Source: Fibrobacter sp. UWH4 (GTDB lineage: Bacteria > Fibrobacterota > Fibrobacteria > Fibrobacterales > Fibrobacteraceae). Taken from it: a DNA stretch of 39,727 nt. The stretch covers positions 1 to 39,727 of the forward strand of contig NZ_FRAY01000014.1 in NCBI RefSeq assembly GCF_900142475.1, written 5' to 3'. Numbering within the stretch: the stretch's first letter is position 1; each line of letters begins with the position of its first letter. A model generated the notes under the pieces. The model had not been told where the DNA came from. It ran no database searches and saw nothing but the letters and a program-made list of their open reading frames with translations. Positions 14,456 to 22,780 of the stretch are shown piece after piece. Position numbers and translations under genes: made by a program.

Positions 14456-16255
14456 CTATTTCTTGCTCACCATTGCAATTACATGTTCTGCGCCGAAGTT
14501 TGCAAAACCGATCGCGGTCAGGAACTTGCTGAGCTTGTGTTCGTTCTGGTAGCTGATGGTTTCAATTTTCAAGCCTTCCTTGTCGCAAAGGGTGTGGAAA
14601 TCCTTTACGGTCAAGAGGCGGATGTTCGGCGTGTCATACCATTCGTAAGGGAGTTCCTTCGATTTCGGCATGCGTCCGTGCAGCATCAGGCTTCCGCGGG
14701 TTGTCCAGTGACCGAAATTCGGGAAGGTCACGATAGCTCGCTTGGCGACACGCAGAAGTTCGTTCAAGAGGGCGACCGGGTCGCGGATTTCTTGAATGGT
14801 GCGGTTGATGATGGCGTAATCGAAGCTTCCGTCCTTGAAGTCGCTGATTCCGCTTTCGTCGAGGTCGCGCTGGATGACGGGCACATCGTTTTCAAGGCAA
14901 TCCATGATGCTCTTGAAGTTGCGTTCGATGCCGAGGACTTCAACATGCTTTTTCTTGTTCAAGAAATCAAGAAGTTCGCCGTTACCGCAGCCGAGGTCGA
15001 GCACCTTGCTGTTTTCCTTGACAAGGCTTCCGATGTAGTCGAAGTCTTCGGTGTCGTGGAATACCGGCATCACCTGCGTATCCGTCGCGGTCGGGATAAT
15101 TTTACTGTCAAGGAAACGGCCTACGGCCTTTCCGAGGTCACCGACTTCGATAAGGAAACCATCGTGGCCAAATTGAGTATCGAGCTCAAGGCTTGTAACC
15201 GTTTTACCTGCATTCAAGAGGGCGCTTGTAATACGACGCGATTCGTGCGGCGGGAAAAGCCAGTCTGTACTCAGGTTCACGTTCAGGAATTCCGCCTTCA
15301 CGCCCTTGAATGCGTTTTCAAGAGAACCGTATTCGGTTTCCAAGTCAAAGCTGTCGGTCGCGTGTGCAATATGCAGGTAGCTGTTGGCGTCGAAGCGGTC
15401 TACGAATTTGGCACCCTGGTAGCGCAGGTAGCTTTCGAGCGGAAGGTTCAAATCGAAAGGTGTGCTGTAGGTGACGGCGTGGTTACGGCTTTCTTGGTCC
15501 TGGGCGCGTTTGAATTTCTGTTCCATGCCCACGGCGCTGAGGTAGGTAATGTGCGCCAACTTGCGGGCATTCGAAAGACCGACATCAGGGTGAGCCGATT
15601 CGTAGTAGTCGCCGCCGTTAAAATTCGGGTCTTGGGTAATCACGTCGCGGGCGACGATTTCAAAACCGAGAGCCTGGCTGCTGAATCGCGGAGAGCTTGC
15701 AATCACGATGCAGCGGCGCACGAGATCCGGATAGTAGATGGCCCACTTCATCGCCTGGAAACCACCCATGGAACCTCCAATCACGCAGCAGAGCTGATCG
15801 ATGCCGAGTCCCTTGGCGAGTTCACGCTGGGCGTTCACCATGTCGCCGATGGTAATCATCGGGAAGGTACTGCCGTAGGGCTTGCCGGTGCGCGGGTTAA
15901 TGCTAGCCGGGCCAGTAGTGCCCTTGCAACCACCTAAAATGTTACTGCAAACGACAAAGAACTTGTCCGTATCGACCGGTTTTCCGGGGCCAATCAGGGC
16001 ATCCCACCAACCGGGTTTCTTATCGTTTTCGGTATAGTATCCTGCCACGTGGGCATCTGCCGTCAACGGGGAACACACCCAGACCACGTTGTTCTTGTCT
16101 GCGTTCAAAGTTCCGTATGTTTCGTAACGGATCGTCAGCGCCGGGAGCGTCTTGCCACACTCCAACATAAAGCCCTGTTCACCATAATCCTTTTCAAAGG
16201 TCTGGGGAACTACGGGACCGACGCTGTTTTTATGCAAAAATTCACTCATACGCAT
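14456..16255 (-). CDS. metX: Fused homoserine O-acetyltransferase MetX and MetW methyltransferase-like protein
   Basis: This 599-residue protein has two parts. Residues 1 to about 390 are an alpha/beta-hydrolase MetX: nucleophile G-G-S-M-G-G (Ser162), Asp331 in L-S-T-D-W-L-F-P-P, His364 in F-G-H-D-G-F, with N-I-L-G-G-C-K-G-T-T-G-P nearby. MetX makes O-acetylhomoserine from homoserine and acetyl-CoA (some members use succinyl-CoA). Residues about 400-599 are MetW, starting F-D-Y-I-G-S-L-V and carrying the SAM-type motif V-L-D-L-G-C-G-N-G (418-426) and N-R-T-I-Q-E-I. In proteobacteria metX and metW are usually separate neighbouring genes and MetW stimulates MetX, so the fusion fixes their ratio. 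The start could be ATG 16255 or 16249. No SAM riboswitch is seen upstream. Confidence 0.93.
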   Translation of the reverse strand: MRMSEFLHKNSVGPVVPQTFEKDYGEQGFMLECGKTLPALTIRYETYGTLNADKNNVVWVCSPLTADAHVAGYYTENDKKPGWWDALIGPGKPVDTDKFFVVCSNILGGCKGTTGPASINPRTGKPYGSTFPMITIGDMVNAQRELAKGLGIDQLCCVIGGSMGGFQAMKWAIYYPDLVRRCIVIASSPRFSSQALGFEIVARDVITQDPNFNGGDYYESAHPDVGLSNARKLAHITYLSAVGMEQKFKRAQDQESRNHAVTYSTPFDLNLPLESYLRYQGAKFVDRFDANSYLHIAHATDSFDLETEYGSLENAFKGVKAEFLNVNLSTDWLFPPHESRRITSALLNAGKTVTSLELDTQFGHDGFLIEVGDLGKAVGRFLDSKIIPTATDTQVMPVFHDTEDFDYIGSLVKENSKVLDLGCGNGELLDFLNKKKHVEVLGIERNFKSIMDCLENDVPVIQRDLDESGISDFKDGSFDYAIINRTIQEIRDPVALLNELLRVAKRAIVTFPNFGHWTTRGSLMLHGRMPKSKELPYEWYDTPNIRLLTVKDFHTLCDKEGLKIETISYQNEHKLSKFLTAIGFANFGAEHVIAMVSKK

Positions 16256-16414: not shown

Positions 16415-17305
16415 TCAGACTTGTCGGGGCTTTCCCGTCCAGCCGAGTTTTTCACGAAGGGCGCCAACGAATCCCGTATGGCGCATTCGGATAAAAGTCG
16501 TCACCGACTTACTTTCGGAAAGAGTCACGATATCGTCCGGTTTCAACACGATTGTCGTACGCCCGTCGAAAACCAAATCCAGCGGACCGTCAACTGCCGA
16601 CTTCATCTGCAATTTCTTGGACGAAAGCGACAGCACCAGCGGGCGCACCGAAAGACTGCTCGGCGCCACAGGAGTCAGCACCACGGCAGGAGTCGCCGGA
16701 TGGATAATCGGGCCGCCGGCCGCCAAGTTGTAAGCGGTAGAACCCGTCGGCGTAGAAACAAGCAGAGAATCCGCCCAATAATCCGTAAGGGCGGTACCGT
16801 TGTAGGCAACACTCACGTTCACCATGCGCTCGGGTGCGTGCGCACGCACATGCACCTCGTTCAACACCGTCTGCTTGGCGACCTGTTTTTTGCCATGGTA
16901 AACGACCGCATCGATCATCATGCGCTCGCGGGTCGAAAAGTCTCCCGCAAACAAGCTATCCAAGGTCTGTGTAAGGTCCTCGACACGCGTCTCCGCCAAA
17001 AATCCGACTCGACCCGCGTTCACGCCCAGAATGGGCGTGTCGTGCCCGAGCGCCATATGCGCCGCCGAAAGCACCGTACCGTCCCCGCCGATAGCAAGCA
17101 GCAAGTCCGACTTGCAAAGAGCACTTTCCTTGACCACCTTGATCGGCTTACGGGCGATTCCCTTCAGGTTTTCCAGAGCGCAAAATTTCACCTGCGGATG
17201 CGCCGTCGCCCACGCCGAAATCACGTCGAGCGCAAGCGCCAAATCAGGGCTCTTGTCTTTCCAGCCCACGATGCCAATTGTCCGAAAGTGAAAGTCCTTT
17301 TTCAT
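16415..17305 (-). CDS. nadK: NAD kinase
   Basis: The protein is 296 residues from ATG 17305, one base after the TAG stop of the upstream gene, which points to translational coupling. A longer frame upstream overlaps the aroA-like gene and is rejected. The NAD kinase signature is clear: L-A-I-G-G-D-G-T-V-L (Asp75), G-V-N-A-G-R-V-G-F-L-A-E, L-N-E-V-H-V-R-A, and S-T-P-T-G-S-T-A-Y-N-L-A-A-G-G-P-I. The enzyme phosphorylates NAD+ to NADP+. Its place at the end of an operon of tyrosine-branch genes is unusual. Prephenate dehydrogenase uses NAD(P)+, so a metabolic link is possible but not shown. Confidence 0.96.
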   Translation of the reverse strand: MKKDFHFRTIGIVGWKDKSPDLALALDVISAWATAHPQVKFCALENLKGIARKPIKVVKESALCKSDLLLAIGGDGTVLSAAHMALGHDTPILGVNAGRVGFLAETRVEDLTQTLDSLFAGDFSTRERMMIDAVVYHGKKQVAKQTVLNEVHVRAHAPERMVNVSVAYNGTALTDYWADSLLVSTPTGSTAYNLAAGGPIIHPATPAVVLTPVAPSSLSVRPLVLSLSSKKLQMKSAVDGPLDLVFDGRTTIVLKPDDIVTLSESKSVTTFIRMRHTGFVGALREKLGWTGKPRQV

Positions 17306-17306
17306 C

Positions 17307-18677
17307 CTACGATTCCTCCGGCTTTGCCGTCGCCATTTCAAGCATCTGAGCAAGCTTCTGCAACACGCCCGGATAAGTGCGTTCCACCAGTTCCACATTC
17401 GCTACGGGTTCGTCGTTTTCGAGCGCCATTGAAAGCACCGAAAGGGCGAGACCATTCTCCGGCGCCTCTCCCCCGTCAAAGTCACTTCCGTTCACAATCG
17501 TCTCAAGTCCGCGGATGACGAGGCCGTCGTCGTAGACACCGACTTCTGCACCGGTCTTGCGCAGGTTTTCGGCGAGGGCTTCATTGCGCGCCCGCATTTC
17601 CTTGCGGATTTCCTTCGGGATCCGAAGGATCGTTTCGCCCTCGGCGAAACAGGCCGCCACCGCAAGGAATGGATATTCCTCGAGTCCCGTCGCTATCGTA
17701 TCTTCCGAAAAGCGGCGGCCCTGCAGGCGTTTCCCCGATGCCAGCGGATACACCATCACGTCGCCGTAGACATCGCCAAAACGTTCGCGGCGGCTCACCG
17801 TCTCGAAATTTCCGCCCATACGCTTCAGGCAAGTAAGCGCACCGGCGCGCGAACTGTTCAGATCCACATTCTTCAGACAGACTTCGGTATTCTTCGGGAT
17901 GCCCGCAATCGTTGCCAGCAACACAAACGCCATGGCCTCGGTGGTATCGCCGGGAATGTAGTAGTCGCGCCCCGTAATCACCTGCGTTTCCGAAAGTTCC
18001 GTGAACTGCGTACGTTCAATCTTCTGGCCGCGCGCCATCATCATGCGGCGTTCAAGCTCCGTCAGCTGTTCCATGCCGCGGCCTTCGTACTTCAGGTTTA
18101 CGCCAAAATAGGCAAGCATCTTGGTCCACTGGTCATGAACCGAGCCCTTTTCCTCAAACGAGATGTATTCGCCGCGAATCAACGTCCGCAAAAGGATCCT
18201 GTTGCGCATCACCGTAGAAATGTTTCCGAGCGAATCCTTCTTAATCGGCAAATCTTCCGCCGCAAAGGTAAACGTGAATTTTGCCGCCTCATCGGAAACG
18301 GGCTTCACCTTGAAATACTTCTGCAACATCTCCTTGGCGCACGCAACTTTCGCTATTCCCGCCTCGTCCTCTTCGGCGGCAAACGTGTAAATCTGTTCCA
18401 TGTCCTTCGAGGCAAGCGTCCAAAGCATCACGCAGCGTGATTCGCTCATGTCCATCGGGAGCATGCTCGGAAGCGCATACTGGAAGCCCTTACCTTCGAG
18501 CACCAGCTGGTGACCCTGCTGCACATACGAAAGTCCGAATTCCTTGAGGGCCTCGGCAAAAGGTTCAACGCCAGCGGCAAACGAAAAATCTTCGAAAACG
18601 GTACGGCCATTCACCAGGAGCGCCATCACCAGCGCAAGCTCCATGCGTTCGCGATCGGGATTTAAGATAAATTCCAT
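17307..18677 (-). CDS. EPSP synthase-like protein (AroA fold) with degenerate active site
   Basis: At 456 residues it has the length and two-lobed motif order of 3-phosphoshikimate 1-carboxyvinyltransferase: P-G-D-T-T-E-A-M-A-F at mid-protein, Y-P-F-L-A-V-A-A-C-F-A-E-G-E-T, L-R-K-T-G-A-E-V, and R-T-Y-P-G near the end. Aligned by eye to E. coli AroA, most catalytic positions are changed. The N-terminal K-S...R is N-P-D-R-E-R-M-E-L, S-S-Q is absent, Asp313 is Glu in L-E-E-Y-P, Lys340 is lost while the Arg344 position is kept, the H-R pair is E-N, and Lys411 is Arg. It may be a non-catalytic paralogue or do another job. It lies 10 bases after tyrA and 1 base before nadK in the same operon, with AAAGGAA before its ATG. 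Confidence 0.8.
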   Translation of the reverse strand: MEFILNPDRERMELALVMALLVNGRTVFEDFSFAAGVEPFAEALKEFGLSYVQQGHQLVLEGKGFQYALPSMLPMDMSESRCVMLWTLASKDMEQIYTFAAEEDEAGIAKVACAKEMLQKYFKVKPVSDEAAKFTFTFAAEDLPIKKDSLGNISTVMRNRILLRTLIRGEYISFEEKGSVHDQWTKMLAYFGVNLKYEGRGMEQLTELERRMMMARGQKIERTQFTELSETQVITGRDYYIPGDTTEAMAFVLLATIAGIPKNTEVCLKNVDLNSSRAGALTCLKRMGGNFETVSRRERFGDVYGDVMVYPLASGKRLQGRRFSEDTIATGLEEYPFLAVAACFAEGETILRIPKEIRKEMRARNEALAENLRKTGAEVGVYDDGLVIRGLETIVNGSDFDGGEAPENGLALSVLSMALENDEPVANVELVERTYPGVLQKLAQMLEMATAKPEES

Positions 18678-18687
18678 TAGAGTTCCT

Positions 18688-19830
18688 TTAGCGTTCCTTT
18701 ACATCGTAACCGAGTAGTTTCAAAATCTGGACCGCACGGCGGGCCTCTTCGGGAGTCTTGAAGGCAAGCAGCAACGTTCCCGCAATATTCTCGCGGACCT
18801 TCATCAATTCGATATCGCGGATATTCAAGTTGTTCTGTGCCAGCGGAGAAAGCACCTGCAGCAAGGCTCCCGGCACATCCTTCAGGGGAACCGTAATTTC
18901 AGAGAACGCAGCGGCCGCGTTACGGCCCTTTTCGAAAAGACTCGCACGGCCTTCGTTCCCGGCCTTAAAGACCGATTCCAGTTCTCCGGCACGGTCATCG
19001 GCGGCGGGTTTACCGTCAGAAACCACCTGCAAATGATCCATGGCCTCGATGGTCTTGTCAAGCCCCTCGCGCACCTCGCGCAAAGCAAGCACCGTCTGGT
19101 CGCGGTTAGTGACCGCAATATCGTGCCACATATTCCAGCCAGATGCGGCAATGCGCGTCATGTCCCTAAAGGCACGGCCCGCGTAATGCTGGTAGCTCGG
19201 CTTGACCAGGCGCTCCGGCATACTCGCCGCAAGTGTCGACGAAAGCATCTGCGGCATGTGCGAAACCCACGCCATCGTCCGGTCGTGATGTTCCGGCGGA
19301 AAAACAACCGCGTTCGCCCCGACAAAAGAAATCAGGTCCAGAAGCGACTTGTAATCGGCCTCCTCCACGCCTTCGGGCGGACACACGAACCAGTAGGCAT
19401 TTTCAAAAATTGACGGGTCGTTGTATTCAAGGGTACGCTTTTCGGAACCCGCCATCGGGTGGCTTCCTACGAACACGAACGGCTTCGGCAGTTTGGCCCC
19501 CGCCTTGCAGATTTCCACCTTGGTACTGCCGATATCGCTCACCAGGATTTTTGGCTGCGAAGAAAGCACCGATAAATCCATCTGCGCCAAATTCTCGATC
19601 GTATGCAAAATATGCAGAATCGGCGCACACAGCAAAATCATATCGGAACCAGGCACCCAGTCCGTAATTTCGTCGTAGCCGAAACATTCGTCAGCAAGTC
19701 CCAAATCCTTCGCTCGCGCAAGAGTCGCAGGACTGCTCACCGCACGCACCACCGTAGGCAACTTCGCCTGCTTGATAGCGGCGGCAACGGAACTCGCCAG
19801 GAGTCCAAATCCAACGAAGGTGATCCGCAT
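18688..19830 (-). CDS. tyrA: Prephenate dehydrogenase (TyrA) with C-terminal ACT domain
   Basis: This 380-residue protein begins with a Rossmann fold (M-R-I-T-F-V-G-F-G-L-L-A-S-S). It shows S-D-I-G-S-T-K, the family S-H-P-M-A-G-S-E (with the prephenate-binding His), and H-D-R-T-M-A-W-V-S-H-M-P-Q. It continues with the helical dimer domain (R-D-M-T-R-I-A-A-S). The last 75 residues (I-T-V-P-L-K-D-V-P-G-A-L-L-Q-V-L) form an ACT domain, which normally gives feedback control by tyrosine. The enzyme converts prephenate to 4-hydroxyphenylpyruvate. Its ATG shares one base with the TAA of the upstream chorismate mutase (TAATG), so the two are translationally coupled. They make consecutive steps of the pathway. 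Confidence 0.95.
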   Translation of the reverse strand: MRITFVGFGLLASSVAAAIKQAKLPTVVRAVSSPATLARAKDLGLADECFGYDEITDWVPGSDMILLCAPILHILHTIENLAQMDLSVLSSQPKILVSDIGSTKVEICKAGAKLPKPFVFVGSHPMAGSEKRTLEYNDPSIFENAYWFVCPPEGVEEADYKSLLDLISFVGANAVVFPPEHHDRTMAWVSHMPQMLSSTLAASMPERLVKPSYQHYAGRAFRDMTRIAASGWNMWHDIAVTNRDQTVLALREVREGLDKTIEAMDHLQVVSDGKPAADDRAGELESVFKAGNEGRASLFEKGRNAAAAFSEITVPLKDVPGALLQVLSPLAQNNLNIRDIELMKVRENIAGTLLLAFKTPEEARRAVQILKLLGYDVKER

Positions 19831-20203: not shown

Positions 20204-21145
20204 TTAGAAGATGAAGGCTACGCCGACATGCGGAACCACATTGATTCCGGAGAAGAGGTAATCGATACCCCAGCTGTCGTCGTAATCGTCATAATCGTCA
20301 CCGTTGGTTGCGTCATAGGAGAACGCTCCCAGACCAAGCAGATTCGTCGTCACATCGACACCGGCAACAAAGCCAAAGTTTTCTGTCACGCGGAAACCGA
20401 CAATCAGGTCGCCGCCCAGCATCACGTCAAAAACGAATGCGGAGTATTCAAAGCCCGGATAGTCGTCTTCATTTTCGACCAGCTTGAAATCGATACCCAT
20501 AAGGACGTGCATCGCGACAATGACATCATTTGCCACGGGAGCCATACCCTAACCAAACTTCATATTGAAGTCCATGCCACTCAGGTCAATACCCCTATTA
20601 GCACGTTCCGGTTCCATTTCACCCGAGACATAGCCAAAGGTCAAGCCGAACACAGAAGAATAACCGCTTTCGTTCACACGGTAACGGGTCCAGCTAAATT
20701 CATAGCCAACGGAGCTCCATTCTGTGTCGCCGGGGCCATCACTGTCCATTTCCCAGGTTTCGTTTTCAACAGGAATAGCGAAATTGAGCGTCTGCAAAGA
20801 CATACCCGTCTTCTGCTTGGGCTGGGGTGCGGGTTGGCCGTATGCCTGTTGCGGCTGGGCGTAGCCGTTGTTGTACTGTTGCGGCTGACCGTAACCCTGC
20901 TGAGGCTGGGCATAACCGTTATTGTACTGTTGCGGCTGACCGTAACCCTGCTGAGGCTGGGCGTAACCGTTGTTGTACTGCTGCGGCTGGCCATACCCCT
21001 GTTGCGGCTGGGCGTAACCGTTGTTGTACTGCTGCGGTTGCGCGTACCCCTGTTGCGGCTGGGCATATTCAGCATAGCCTTCGTCCTGAGCAAAAGCGGA
21101 AAGAGCCAAGGACAGAACCGTAGCGAGCATCATATTCTTCTTCAT
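20204..21145 (-). pseudogene. Outer-membrane beta-barrel-like protein interrupted by an in-frame TAG
   Basis: The gene starts at ATG 21145 with AGGAG upstream and a signal peptide ([19 protein letters not shown]). Residues about 25-100 are a Tyr/Gln/Pro-rich repeat (G-Y-A-Q-P-Q-Q). The rest has alternating beta strands typical of an outer-membrane barrel, ending G-V-A-F-I-F, a C-terminal Phe. The frame is broken by TAG at 20549-20551 between K-F-G and G-M-A-P-V, and the same frame continues to 20204. One base change (TGG to TAG) would explain it. It could be a real nonsense mutation, a sequencing error or a readthrough site. Translation may restart at ATG 20545, but that product would lack a signal peptide. 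Confidence 0.75.
20838..21066 (-). repeat. Tandem 51-bp repeat encoding Y/Q/P-rich units
   Basis: A 51-base unit (17 residues, [17 protein letters not shown]) is repeated about four times with few changes. The landmark CCGTTGTTGTACTG recurs at 20865, 20916, 20967 and 21018, exactly 51 apart. Such a repeat can change copy number by slippage. Confidence 0.9.
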
Positions 21146-21265
21146 ATTCACTCCTGTGAACAAAATAGGTTATACTGCATCAATATAACATTTTTTTCTT
21201 ACATCGTTCAAAAAAAATTACTTTTTCAGACAATTTATATTCAAAGTCGTCCGGAAAGACGTTTT

Positions 21266-22780
21266 TCAGTGACGGACATCAACCGAATACTCGTCAAAAG
21301 CATCCTTGTTCGCATAAAGGTCACTGCCACGCCAGTCAAAAAGGGCGCTACCCCACTCTCCGTACAAGGTCGGTTCCCAGAAAAACGCGCCTATCCAGCG
21401 GTCTAGGCCCCGTACCATTTCATCAGTACGGCGGCGCGATCCGTCATAATTATAGTGGTTGTTGGCATCGCCACCGTTGTATTCCGCCACGATAAATTCA
21501 AGATTCGGGTAATTTGACGCAAGACTTTCAAACAAACTTTTCCAGCTATCCGGCAAGCCGTCATCGTAAGCCGTATACGCAGAAAAGCCCATCACGTCTG
21601 CAGGGACCTTCTGGTTCTTGAAGATTTCTGTCATCCACCAGTTCACGGTTGACGTCTTGTGAATGCCCTCGATATGAAGTACCGTCTTGATATTCTGCGA
21701 AACCGCCTTGACTGCGCGGATTCCTGCCTTAAAGTACTTAGCCGCATTCGCCTTTCCGCTAGATGTTCCCATATCACCATTGATGCTCGTCGGAGCCTTG
21801 TCTACATTTTTCCCCCAACAGTTTGTGCTGCTGTTAGGCACATGAATCATAATGCCCGGGGTAGTCTCGTTTCCAATTTGCACCAAGTCGGGGGTCGCAT
21901 TTACCTGCTTGAGCGCGCTTACCAAGTCGTAAGTATAGGCATAAACGGAATCCGCAAGAGCATCGGAACTCTGAACGCTACGCCACCGGCTCGGGATAAT
22001 TTGCTTGCCCGGATCAGCCCAGTTGTCGCTATAATGAATGTCGAGGAGGAATGCCATTCCCGCCGCCTTCACCTTTTGGGCATAGGCAACGACATGCTCC
22101 TTGTCGGCATAGGCCTCGGCATCGTGTTCGCAGCCTTGCGCCGCATAACCATACTGAGCCTTAGGCGAAACAAATGTCTTTAGGCGAATGGCGTTGAAGC
22201 CGTGATTCTTGAGCAGTGAAAAAATGTCCTTTTCCGTTCCGTCGACATCGTAGAATTTCGCACCGAAGCGTTCATACTCCTGCACCGTAGAAATATCGGC
22301 GCCACGATAAAAGCTGAAATCGAGTGGCGATTCCGCAGACGAAGAAGGCTCTTGCGACGCTGATGATTGAGGTGGTTTTGAATCCGAGGAATGCGGAGGT
22401 ATCGCGGCCGAGGAATGCGGAGGAAGTCTTGCCGAAGAAAGTTCCGGCCCAAACGAAGTACGGGGATCCAACGCCGAAGATGCCGGTAAAAGCGTATATG
22501 AAGAAGTCGGCCAAGCCGACGAAGACAGGGATTGCGCAAGCTCCGCAGAAGAAAACGGTTCACCCTGCGACGAAATCGAAAAATCTGCCGAAGAAAAGAC
22601 CTGCGGTTCGATATAGAATGTGTCCCGCTGGACACTCGCCGAAGACTGGACCACCTCGTAATCAAAGTCGGCCACGCTGCCGGAATCACCACCGCAGGCC
22701 TGCAAGCCCATAAACGACGCAACAGCAAGGCTCAGGGCACACAGCGTCCCTTTTTCTAAATAACCCATTCGATATCCCAT
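21266..22780 (-). CDS. Endo-beta-1,4-galactanase, GH53, lipoprotein
   Basis: This 504-residue protein has a lipoprotein signal (lipobox G-L-Q-A-C, Cys29) and a long Ser/Pro-rich linker (about residues 43-150) rich in P-H-S-S and Q-S-S-A-S. The catalytic domain follows from about 155. It starts F-Y-R-G-A-D-I-S-T-V, then L-L-D-I-H-Y-S-D-N-W-A-D-P-G-K-Q. The acid/base Glu305 is in V-Q-I-G-N-E-T-T-P-G, and the nucleophile Glu433 is in F-I-V-A-E-Y-N-G, all typical of GH53. It cleaves beta-1,4-galactan side chains of pectin at the cell surface, fitting a plant-fibre degrader. The start could also be ATG 22768. It is divergent from the methyltransferase gene. Confidence 0.93.
   Translation of the reverse strand: MGYRMGYLEKGTLCALSLAVASFMGLQACGGDSGSVADFDYEVVQSSASVQRDTFYIEPQVFSSADFSISSQGEPFSSAELAQSLSSSAWPTSSYTLLPASSALDPRTSFGPELSSARLPPHSSAAIPPHSSDSKPPQSSASQEPSSSAESPLDFSFYRGADISTVQEYERFGAKFYDVDGTEKDIFSLLKNHGFNAIRLKTFVSPKAQYGYAAQGCEHDAEAYADKEHVVAYAQKVKAAGMAFLLDIHYSDNWADPGKQIIPSRWRSVQSSDALADSVYAYTYDLVSALKQVNATPDLVQIGNETTPGIMIHVPNSSTNCWGKNVDKAPTSINGDMGTSSGKANAAKYFKAGIRAVKAVSQNIKTVLHIEGIHKTSTVNWWMTEIFKNQKVPADVMGFSAYTAYDDGLPDSWKSLFESLASNYPNLEFIVAEYNGGDANNHYNYDGSRRRTDEMVRGLDRWIGAFFWEPTLYGEWGSALFDWRGSDLYANKDAFDEYSVDVRH

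Follow-up and report, generated by a model that had tools for sequence, protein, structure and literature searches.

A probable pseudoenzyme with the EPSP synthase fold encoded beside tyrA in Fibrobacterota and Gemmatimonadota

Gene content of the locus and predicted fold

EPSP synthase (EPSPS, AroA) is a textbook enzyme of the shikimate pathway and the target of glyphosate. The window analysed here, a stretch of 39,727 nucleotides from Fibrobacter sp. UWH4, carries on its minus strand a gene for a protein with this fold, referred to below as dead AroA, within a compact operon (Table 1). The stop codon TAA of the chorismate mutase (CM) gene and the ATG of tyrA share one base (TAATG), 10 nt containing an AGGA lie between the tyrA stop and the ATG of dead aroA, and a single nucleotide separates the dead aroA stop from the ATG of nadK. 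The first-pass annotation had rightly placed the gene between tyrA and nadK with tight spacing; the gene upstream of tyrA, a standalone CM according to Pfam, was absent from it.

Table 1. Features of the CM-tyrA-dead aroA-nadK operon in the window.
Feature	Coordinates	Strand	Remarks
nadK, NAD kinase	16415..17305	minus	
Dead AroA, EPSPS-fold pseudoenzyme, 456 aa	17307..18677	minus	ATG start
C-terminal half of dead AroA, about aa 229-448	17334..17993	minus	Sole surviving part in short Gemmatimonadota forms; contains the majority of the conserved columns
Insertion E(L/F)xRRxxxxxGxK of dead AroA, about aa 200-222	18012..18080	minus	Includes R211
tyrA, prephenate dehydrogenase with C-terminal ACT-like domain	18688..19830	minus	ACT-like domain just below the Pfam cut-off
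Standalone AroQ-type chorismate mutase (CM_2), 84 aa	19830..20084	minus	

Around the operon, the minus strand of the window also encodes a 599-aa chain made of an α/β hydrolase (MetX-like homoserine acetyltransferase by sequence) and a MetW domain (14456-16255). Upstream of the CM gene lie a secreted-looking protein with a tandem repeat of a type 10 residues long (20549-21163) and a lipoprotein-like protein (21266-22780) that has a linker rich in Ser and, judged by eye, a candidate GH53-like galactanase domain.

The Pfam model EPSP_synthase matches the window protein at an E-value of 3e-22, in the C-terminal half only. The protein falls below the cut-off of the NCBIfam aroA model (TIGR01356; 98.5 bits vs 287.25) and below the curated MurA cut-off, with one weak match to a MurA model (13.1 bits vs 552), and a Pfam domain search found no DNA-binding domain in it. 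An AlphaFold2 model, run with 48 family members, predicts a full two-domain EPSPS fold with a pLDDT of 92. The best structural matches of this model in Foldseek are class II EPSPS (TM about 0.72-0.75), and the nearest solved folds are those of Bacillus halodurans (3rmt), CP4 (2gg4) and Coxiella (3slh); with 3rmt, VIA-align gave a Z score of 34.4 and an rmsd of 2.9 over 397 residues.

Loss of the catalytic residues

Catalytic residues were scored at 14 core positions of E. coli AroA, namely K22, S23, R27, N94, G96, R124, Q171, D313, K340, E341, R344, D384, H385 and R386. Alignment with the E. coli enzyme bears out the list of changed residues that the first-pass annotation had drawn up by eye, as 13 of the 14 are replaced. 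The substitutions include K22R, S23E, R27L, N94M, G96E, Q171V, D313E, K340E, E341M, D384A, H385P and R386E, together with K411R. Arg344 alone is kept, as had also been noted; this match carries little weight as a sign of conservation, because the position is occupied by K, V, D, L, M or G in orthologues.

The same loss extends through the family. Fibrobacterota orthologues retain 0-3 of the 14 residues, and in an alignment of 88 proteins the 45 dead copies retain 0-5 and the intact AroAs 13-14, with none intermediate; MurA in this alignment retains 6-7. Lys22, Arg27, Arg124, Asp313, Lys340, His385 and Arg386 are lost in the dead family, and their replacements are not conserved. In intact TyrA-linked AroAs, column entropy is 0.17 at the active site vs 1.43 elsewhere. 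In dead copies the pattern is reversed, with higher entropy at the former active site than elsewhere both in Fibrobacterota (2.93 vs 2.32, p 6e-5) and in Gemmatimonadota (2.24 vs 1.88, p 0.017), the p-values being only indicative because the aligned rows are related. The old cleft looks, from its sequence variation, freed from constraint and not refitted. Among the Fibrobacterota sequences, the columns of highest conservation fall mostly at E. coli positions 241-414, in the C-terminal half. An insertion of the type E(L/F)xRRxxxxxGxK is common to the Fibrobacterota members aligned, with Arg211 invariant in 48 sequences, and is missing from the Gemmatimonadota member L110.

Some members have lost whole parts of the fold. 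In one Fibrobacterota genus (g4), the proteins are about 360 aa long and lack about 90 residues of the N-terminal domain. In a group of Gemmatimonadota (L242-L246), only about 220 aa remain, the first strand being joined to residues from about 240 onward in E. coli numbering. The predicted fold of a 219-aa Gemmatimonadota form has a pLDDT of 94.7 and a pTM of 0.91, and 213 residues of the model can be superposed on EPSPS chains, within the span from residue 2 to residue 428 (Z 28.6). Alignment of the modelled half-protein to both ends of the chain is as expected if the inner domain had been removed. Such half-proteins are unable to form the active site of EPSPS, which lies between the two domains.

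Canonical AroA in the genome and selection on the dead copy

A search of the genome with PF00275 returned three loci, namely an AroA on contig C5, a MurA on contig C3 and the window gene. The AroA on C5 (443 aa) has all 14 core residues and scores 444 bits against TIGR01356, so the second, canonical aroA that the first-pass annotation proposed to look for is present, and the refuting finding that it had named, a genome holding no other aroA, does not apply. Across the phylum, 155 of 168 Fibrobacterota genomes have an AroA above the curated cut-off, and many of the remaining 13 are incomplete or fragmented assemblies. In a plasmid search, the matches listed contained only ordinary AroA-type proteins. 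Several Gemmatimonadota AroAs of the canonical class (L259 1765-3057, L260 1832-3187, L196 1483-2889 and L258 2752-4062) show His or Gln at the position of Lys340, or carry S23N with T97A, variants that possibly bear on glyphosate sensitivity.

Within the genus, pairwise dN/dS of dead aroA is 0.04-0.08, close to the values of tyrA (0.05-0.11) and nadK (0.05-0.11) in the same pairs; the closest five pairs bear the weight of these estimates, because dS is near saturation in more distant ones. A decaying pseudogene is rejected at such ratios. Catalytic residues have been lost while the protein is conserved, as in a pseudoenzyme, and the earlier suggestion of a pseudoenzyme is strongly supported by the canonical AroA, the loss of residues across two phyla, the loss of folding units and the strong purifying selection. 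Judged from these sequence comparisons, the window protein is very probably not an EPSP synthase and nonetheless functional.

Distribution and gene order

Orthologues of dead aroA are present in nearly all Fibrobacteraceae, the four genomes without a match being 69-86% complete. They also occur in the remaining families of this class and in the deep families f13 and f14. With a profile built from divergent Chitinispirillia-type members, a strong match was obtained in 29 of 36 further genomes, and none in the five genomes of family f8. The order CM-tyrA-dead aroA-nadK was found in 81 fetched loci with both flanks covered, some of which share a genome.

In Chitinispirillia-type loci the order is lepB-trpB-trpA-CM-tyrA-dead aroA-nadK-recN, where trpA and CM were assigned by Pfam and lepB, trpB and recN were read from sequence. 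Five Fibrobacterota loci (L293, L294, L295, L297 and L304) read lepA-lepB-trpB-trpA-chorismate mutase-(tyrA)-dead aroA-nadK-recN, with tyrA or CM missing in single lineages. The Chitinispirillia-type CM is about 250 aa long (L099 6434-7174 and relatives) and barely matched by Pfam CM_2 (E 0.0013), so the CM type was swapped, from or to the 84-aa AroQ form of Fibrobacteraceae, while its neighbours stayed.

Outside Fibrobacterota, a TyrA scan found CM-tyrA-dead aroA followed by aroE in the Gemmatimonas MAG L110, the genome of which also has a canonical AroA. The CM-tyrA-dead aroA arrangement occurs in many of the 64 Gemmatimonadota genomes searched, and nadK was not found beside dead aroA in the loci of this phylum. 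In KSB1, Calditrichota, Bipolaricaulota and Firmicutes, tyrA is followed by an intact class II AroA with 14 of 14 core residues. One KSB1 genome has the order CM-tyrA-aroA-aroE-aroK-aroB (the genes after aroA being read from sequence), so that aroE follows the intact AroA there as it follows the dead copy in L110.

Ancestry of dead AroA

In our trees, the dead copies are grouped beside the TyrA-linked class II AroAs (SH-aLRT 98, and 99/97 in another tree), support being about 90 after removal of the longest branches; for neither phylum does the canonical AroA belong to this grouping. One origin for the dead copies of both phyla is favoured by these trees, with the caveat that mutual attraction of fast-evolving rows may contribute. 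The AU test did not reject two alternative placements in which the origins are separate (p 0.10 and 0.058). By its position and its place in the tree, dead aroA is a descendant of a class II EPSPS, and an intact class II AroA after tyrA is likely to be the ancestral state. We infer that catalysis was lost in place, after a second AroA had taken over.

Candidate partners

The neighbours of dead aroA were considered as possible partners. TyrA was not found in seven genomes of four lineages (G166, G167, G021-G023, G036 and G037; lineages f13, f14, g27 and g36) in searches with the A3 profile and with PF02153 at its cut-off; these genomes are 77-100% complete, and single absences could be assembly gaps. 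All seven keep dead aroA and have a CM, which adjoins it wherever the flank was covered. TyrA as an obligatory partner, which linkage had at first suggested, was dropped on these grounds, and a tyrosine-specific role is doubtful, given that these four lineages retain the gene with no TyrA found. The description of the locus as belonging to the tyrosine branch fits the operon, CM-tyrA-dead aroA-nadK, and is doubtful for the role of the protein.

CM is not established as an obligatory partner either, because it is non-adjacent in a few genomes and its partial correlation is low. In three genomes (G020, G038 and G039) CM is unlinked and TyrA still lies beside dead aroA, and the partial correlations of gene distances with dead aroA (TyrA 0.41, NadK 0.44, CM 0.07) single out no partner. 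In family f8, TyrA was found in four of the five genomes and CM likewise in four of five, on other contigs where found; as this family has no dead AroA despite TyrA and CM, the protein is dispensable in some lineages. Since nadK and recN also keep their order, inertia may be enough to explain the conserved neighbourhood taken by itself. The loci read contained no natural fusion in which TyrA or CM is joined to the dead domain, and candidate TyrA-dead AroA fusions among open frames were only overlaps in different frames, none of them real.

Functional interpretation

Since the active site is lost, yet selection and the place in the operon are kept beside a working copy, dead AroA is probably a helper or scaffold and not an enzyme. 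Its forebear would be a class II EPSP synthase encoded next to tyrA, as the last gene of an ancestral operon CM-tyrA-aroA, and the operon copy may have lost catalysis once the genome held a second AroA, remaining under strong selection owing to a second, non-catalytic job. It would most likely act through protein-protein contacts of its C-terminal half-domain and may hold or tune enzymes at the chorismate/prephenate branch, CM and TyrA being the nearest candidates. From the data above, we infer this order of events, the binding of a partner, which partner that would be and a structural or allosteric nature of the effect. On balance, we favour a non-catalytic role in the aromatic branch exerted by protein contact, within which CM as the main partner is a tentative choice. 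A regulatory role, which the first-pass annotation had suggested, is plausible.

More speculatively, the dead EPSPSs of Fibrobacterota and Gemmatimonadota might form an ancient family and represent a new type of subunit, structural or regulatory, in the chorismate-to-prephenate branch, borne by the C-terminal half-domain alone, with the intact TyrA-linked AroAs of other bacteria already sharing a hidden second function.

Among other explanations, the protein could be a ligand sensor, which binds a shikimate-pathway metabolite and controls the canonical AroA, CM, TyrA or a transcription factor. The full two-domain fold of the window protein would allow this, and the fungal repressors QutR, TanX and GaaX, homologous to part of AROM, were hypothesised to be inactive and yet to recognise ligands (PMC10512348). 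We consider such a sensor unlikely, as conservation is lower at the columns that once bound substrate than in the remainder of the sequence, the half-proteins lack one wall of the cleft, and the window protein has no detected DNA-binding domain.

A new enzyme, with the EPSPS fold refitted for another substrate, would account for the strong purifying selection and has parallels in MurA and NikO, which already use this fold. It is improbable here, since the former active-site columns vary between genera without any new common set of residues, and since g4 lost a folding unit and some Gemmatimonadota a whole domain while the gene was kept in place. The new substrate considered in the first-pass annotation is disfavoured on the same evidence, that is, by less conserved active-site columns and by half-proteins without the cleft.

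There is a similarly small chance that dead AroA serves a partner outside the set above, either as the dead member of a pair whose live member is the canonical AroA, or in the service of NadK instead of the aromatic branch. Catalytically dead paralogues activate live partners elsewhere (PMC3663545, PMC5201418), and nadK directly follows dead aroA in nearly all Fibrobacterota loci read, even without TyrA. However, nadK was not found beside the Gemmatimonadota copies, aroE being next in L110, and the canonical AroA is unlinked and falls in other branches of the tree.

It is very improbable that the protein has remained an EPSP synthase whose active site is merely unusual: it belongs to the fold and superfamily, but a canonical AroA is present, seven key residues are gone without conserved replacement, and half-proteins exist. 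A relic without protein function, retained solely to couple the translation of tyrA and nadK, would fit the very tight spacing and has next to no probability, since a dN/dS of 0.04-0.08 over 456 codons needs amino-acid selection and the structure prediction gives a complete fold at high confidence; selection acting on the protein sequence refutes it unless the dN/dS estimate is wrong.

A dead EPSPS conserved this deeply would provide a clear example, in bacteria, of how an enzyme of central metabolism can become a non-enzyme, and nature supplies the stages: the full protein, a form lacking one folding unit, and a half-domain. It also hints that a second, structural function of TyrA-linked AroA may predate the loss of catalysis. 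In practice, EPSPS or glyphosate-sensitivity calls made from the EPSPS domain alone miscount Fibrobacterota and Gemmatimonadota.

Comparison with known systems

The literature searched, the coverage of which is incomplete, yielded no description of a bacterial family of EPSPS pseudoenzymes. The TyrA-linked class II AroA shares with dead AroA its fold, its place after tyrA and its ancestry; unlike it, dead AroA has lost catalytic residues, is accompanied by a second AroA in the genome and, in some members, lacks a folding unit or a domain.

The chorismate mutase of M. tuberculosis is activated by DAHP synthase (PMC4281200), which shows that a small chorismate mutase can rely for its activity on another protein of its pathway. 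That partner, however, is an active enzyme of another fold, while contact between dead AroA and CM is putative. In Aro1 of Candida albicans, the dehydroquinase domain is inactive and a second enzyme performs the step, yet the domain is retained and mediates homodimer formation (PMC9074039). It differs from dead AroA in being part of a multienzyme and of another fold, and its deletion gave no growth defect (PMC9074039).

QutR, TanX and GaaX resemble dead AroA in that shikimate-pathway enzyme domains thought to be inactive are reused for control (PMC10512348). These eukaryotic proteins differ in consisting of shikimate kinase, dehydroquinase and shikimate dehydrogenase domains and in being paired with transcription activators; the window protein, by contrast with an AROM-type repressor, is a single EPSPS fold with CM, tyrA and nadK as its neighbours.

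According to Song et al. (2005), the EPSPS domain of a TyrA-AroF fusion in Pseudomonas syringae is truncated, coupled with the acquisition of a foreign EPSPS, and the authors suggested that the EPSPS remnant could become a new regulatory domain (PMC1173090). The likeness to dead AroA is that a tyrA-linked EPSPS loses its catalytic function in a genome that has gained a different EPSPS. The P. syringae case is one recent lineage with a fused domain, whereas dead AroA is encoded by a separate gene, in two phyla and under purifying selection.
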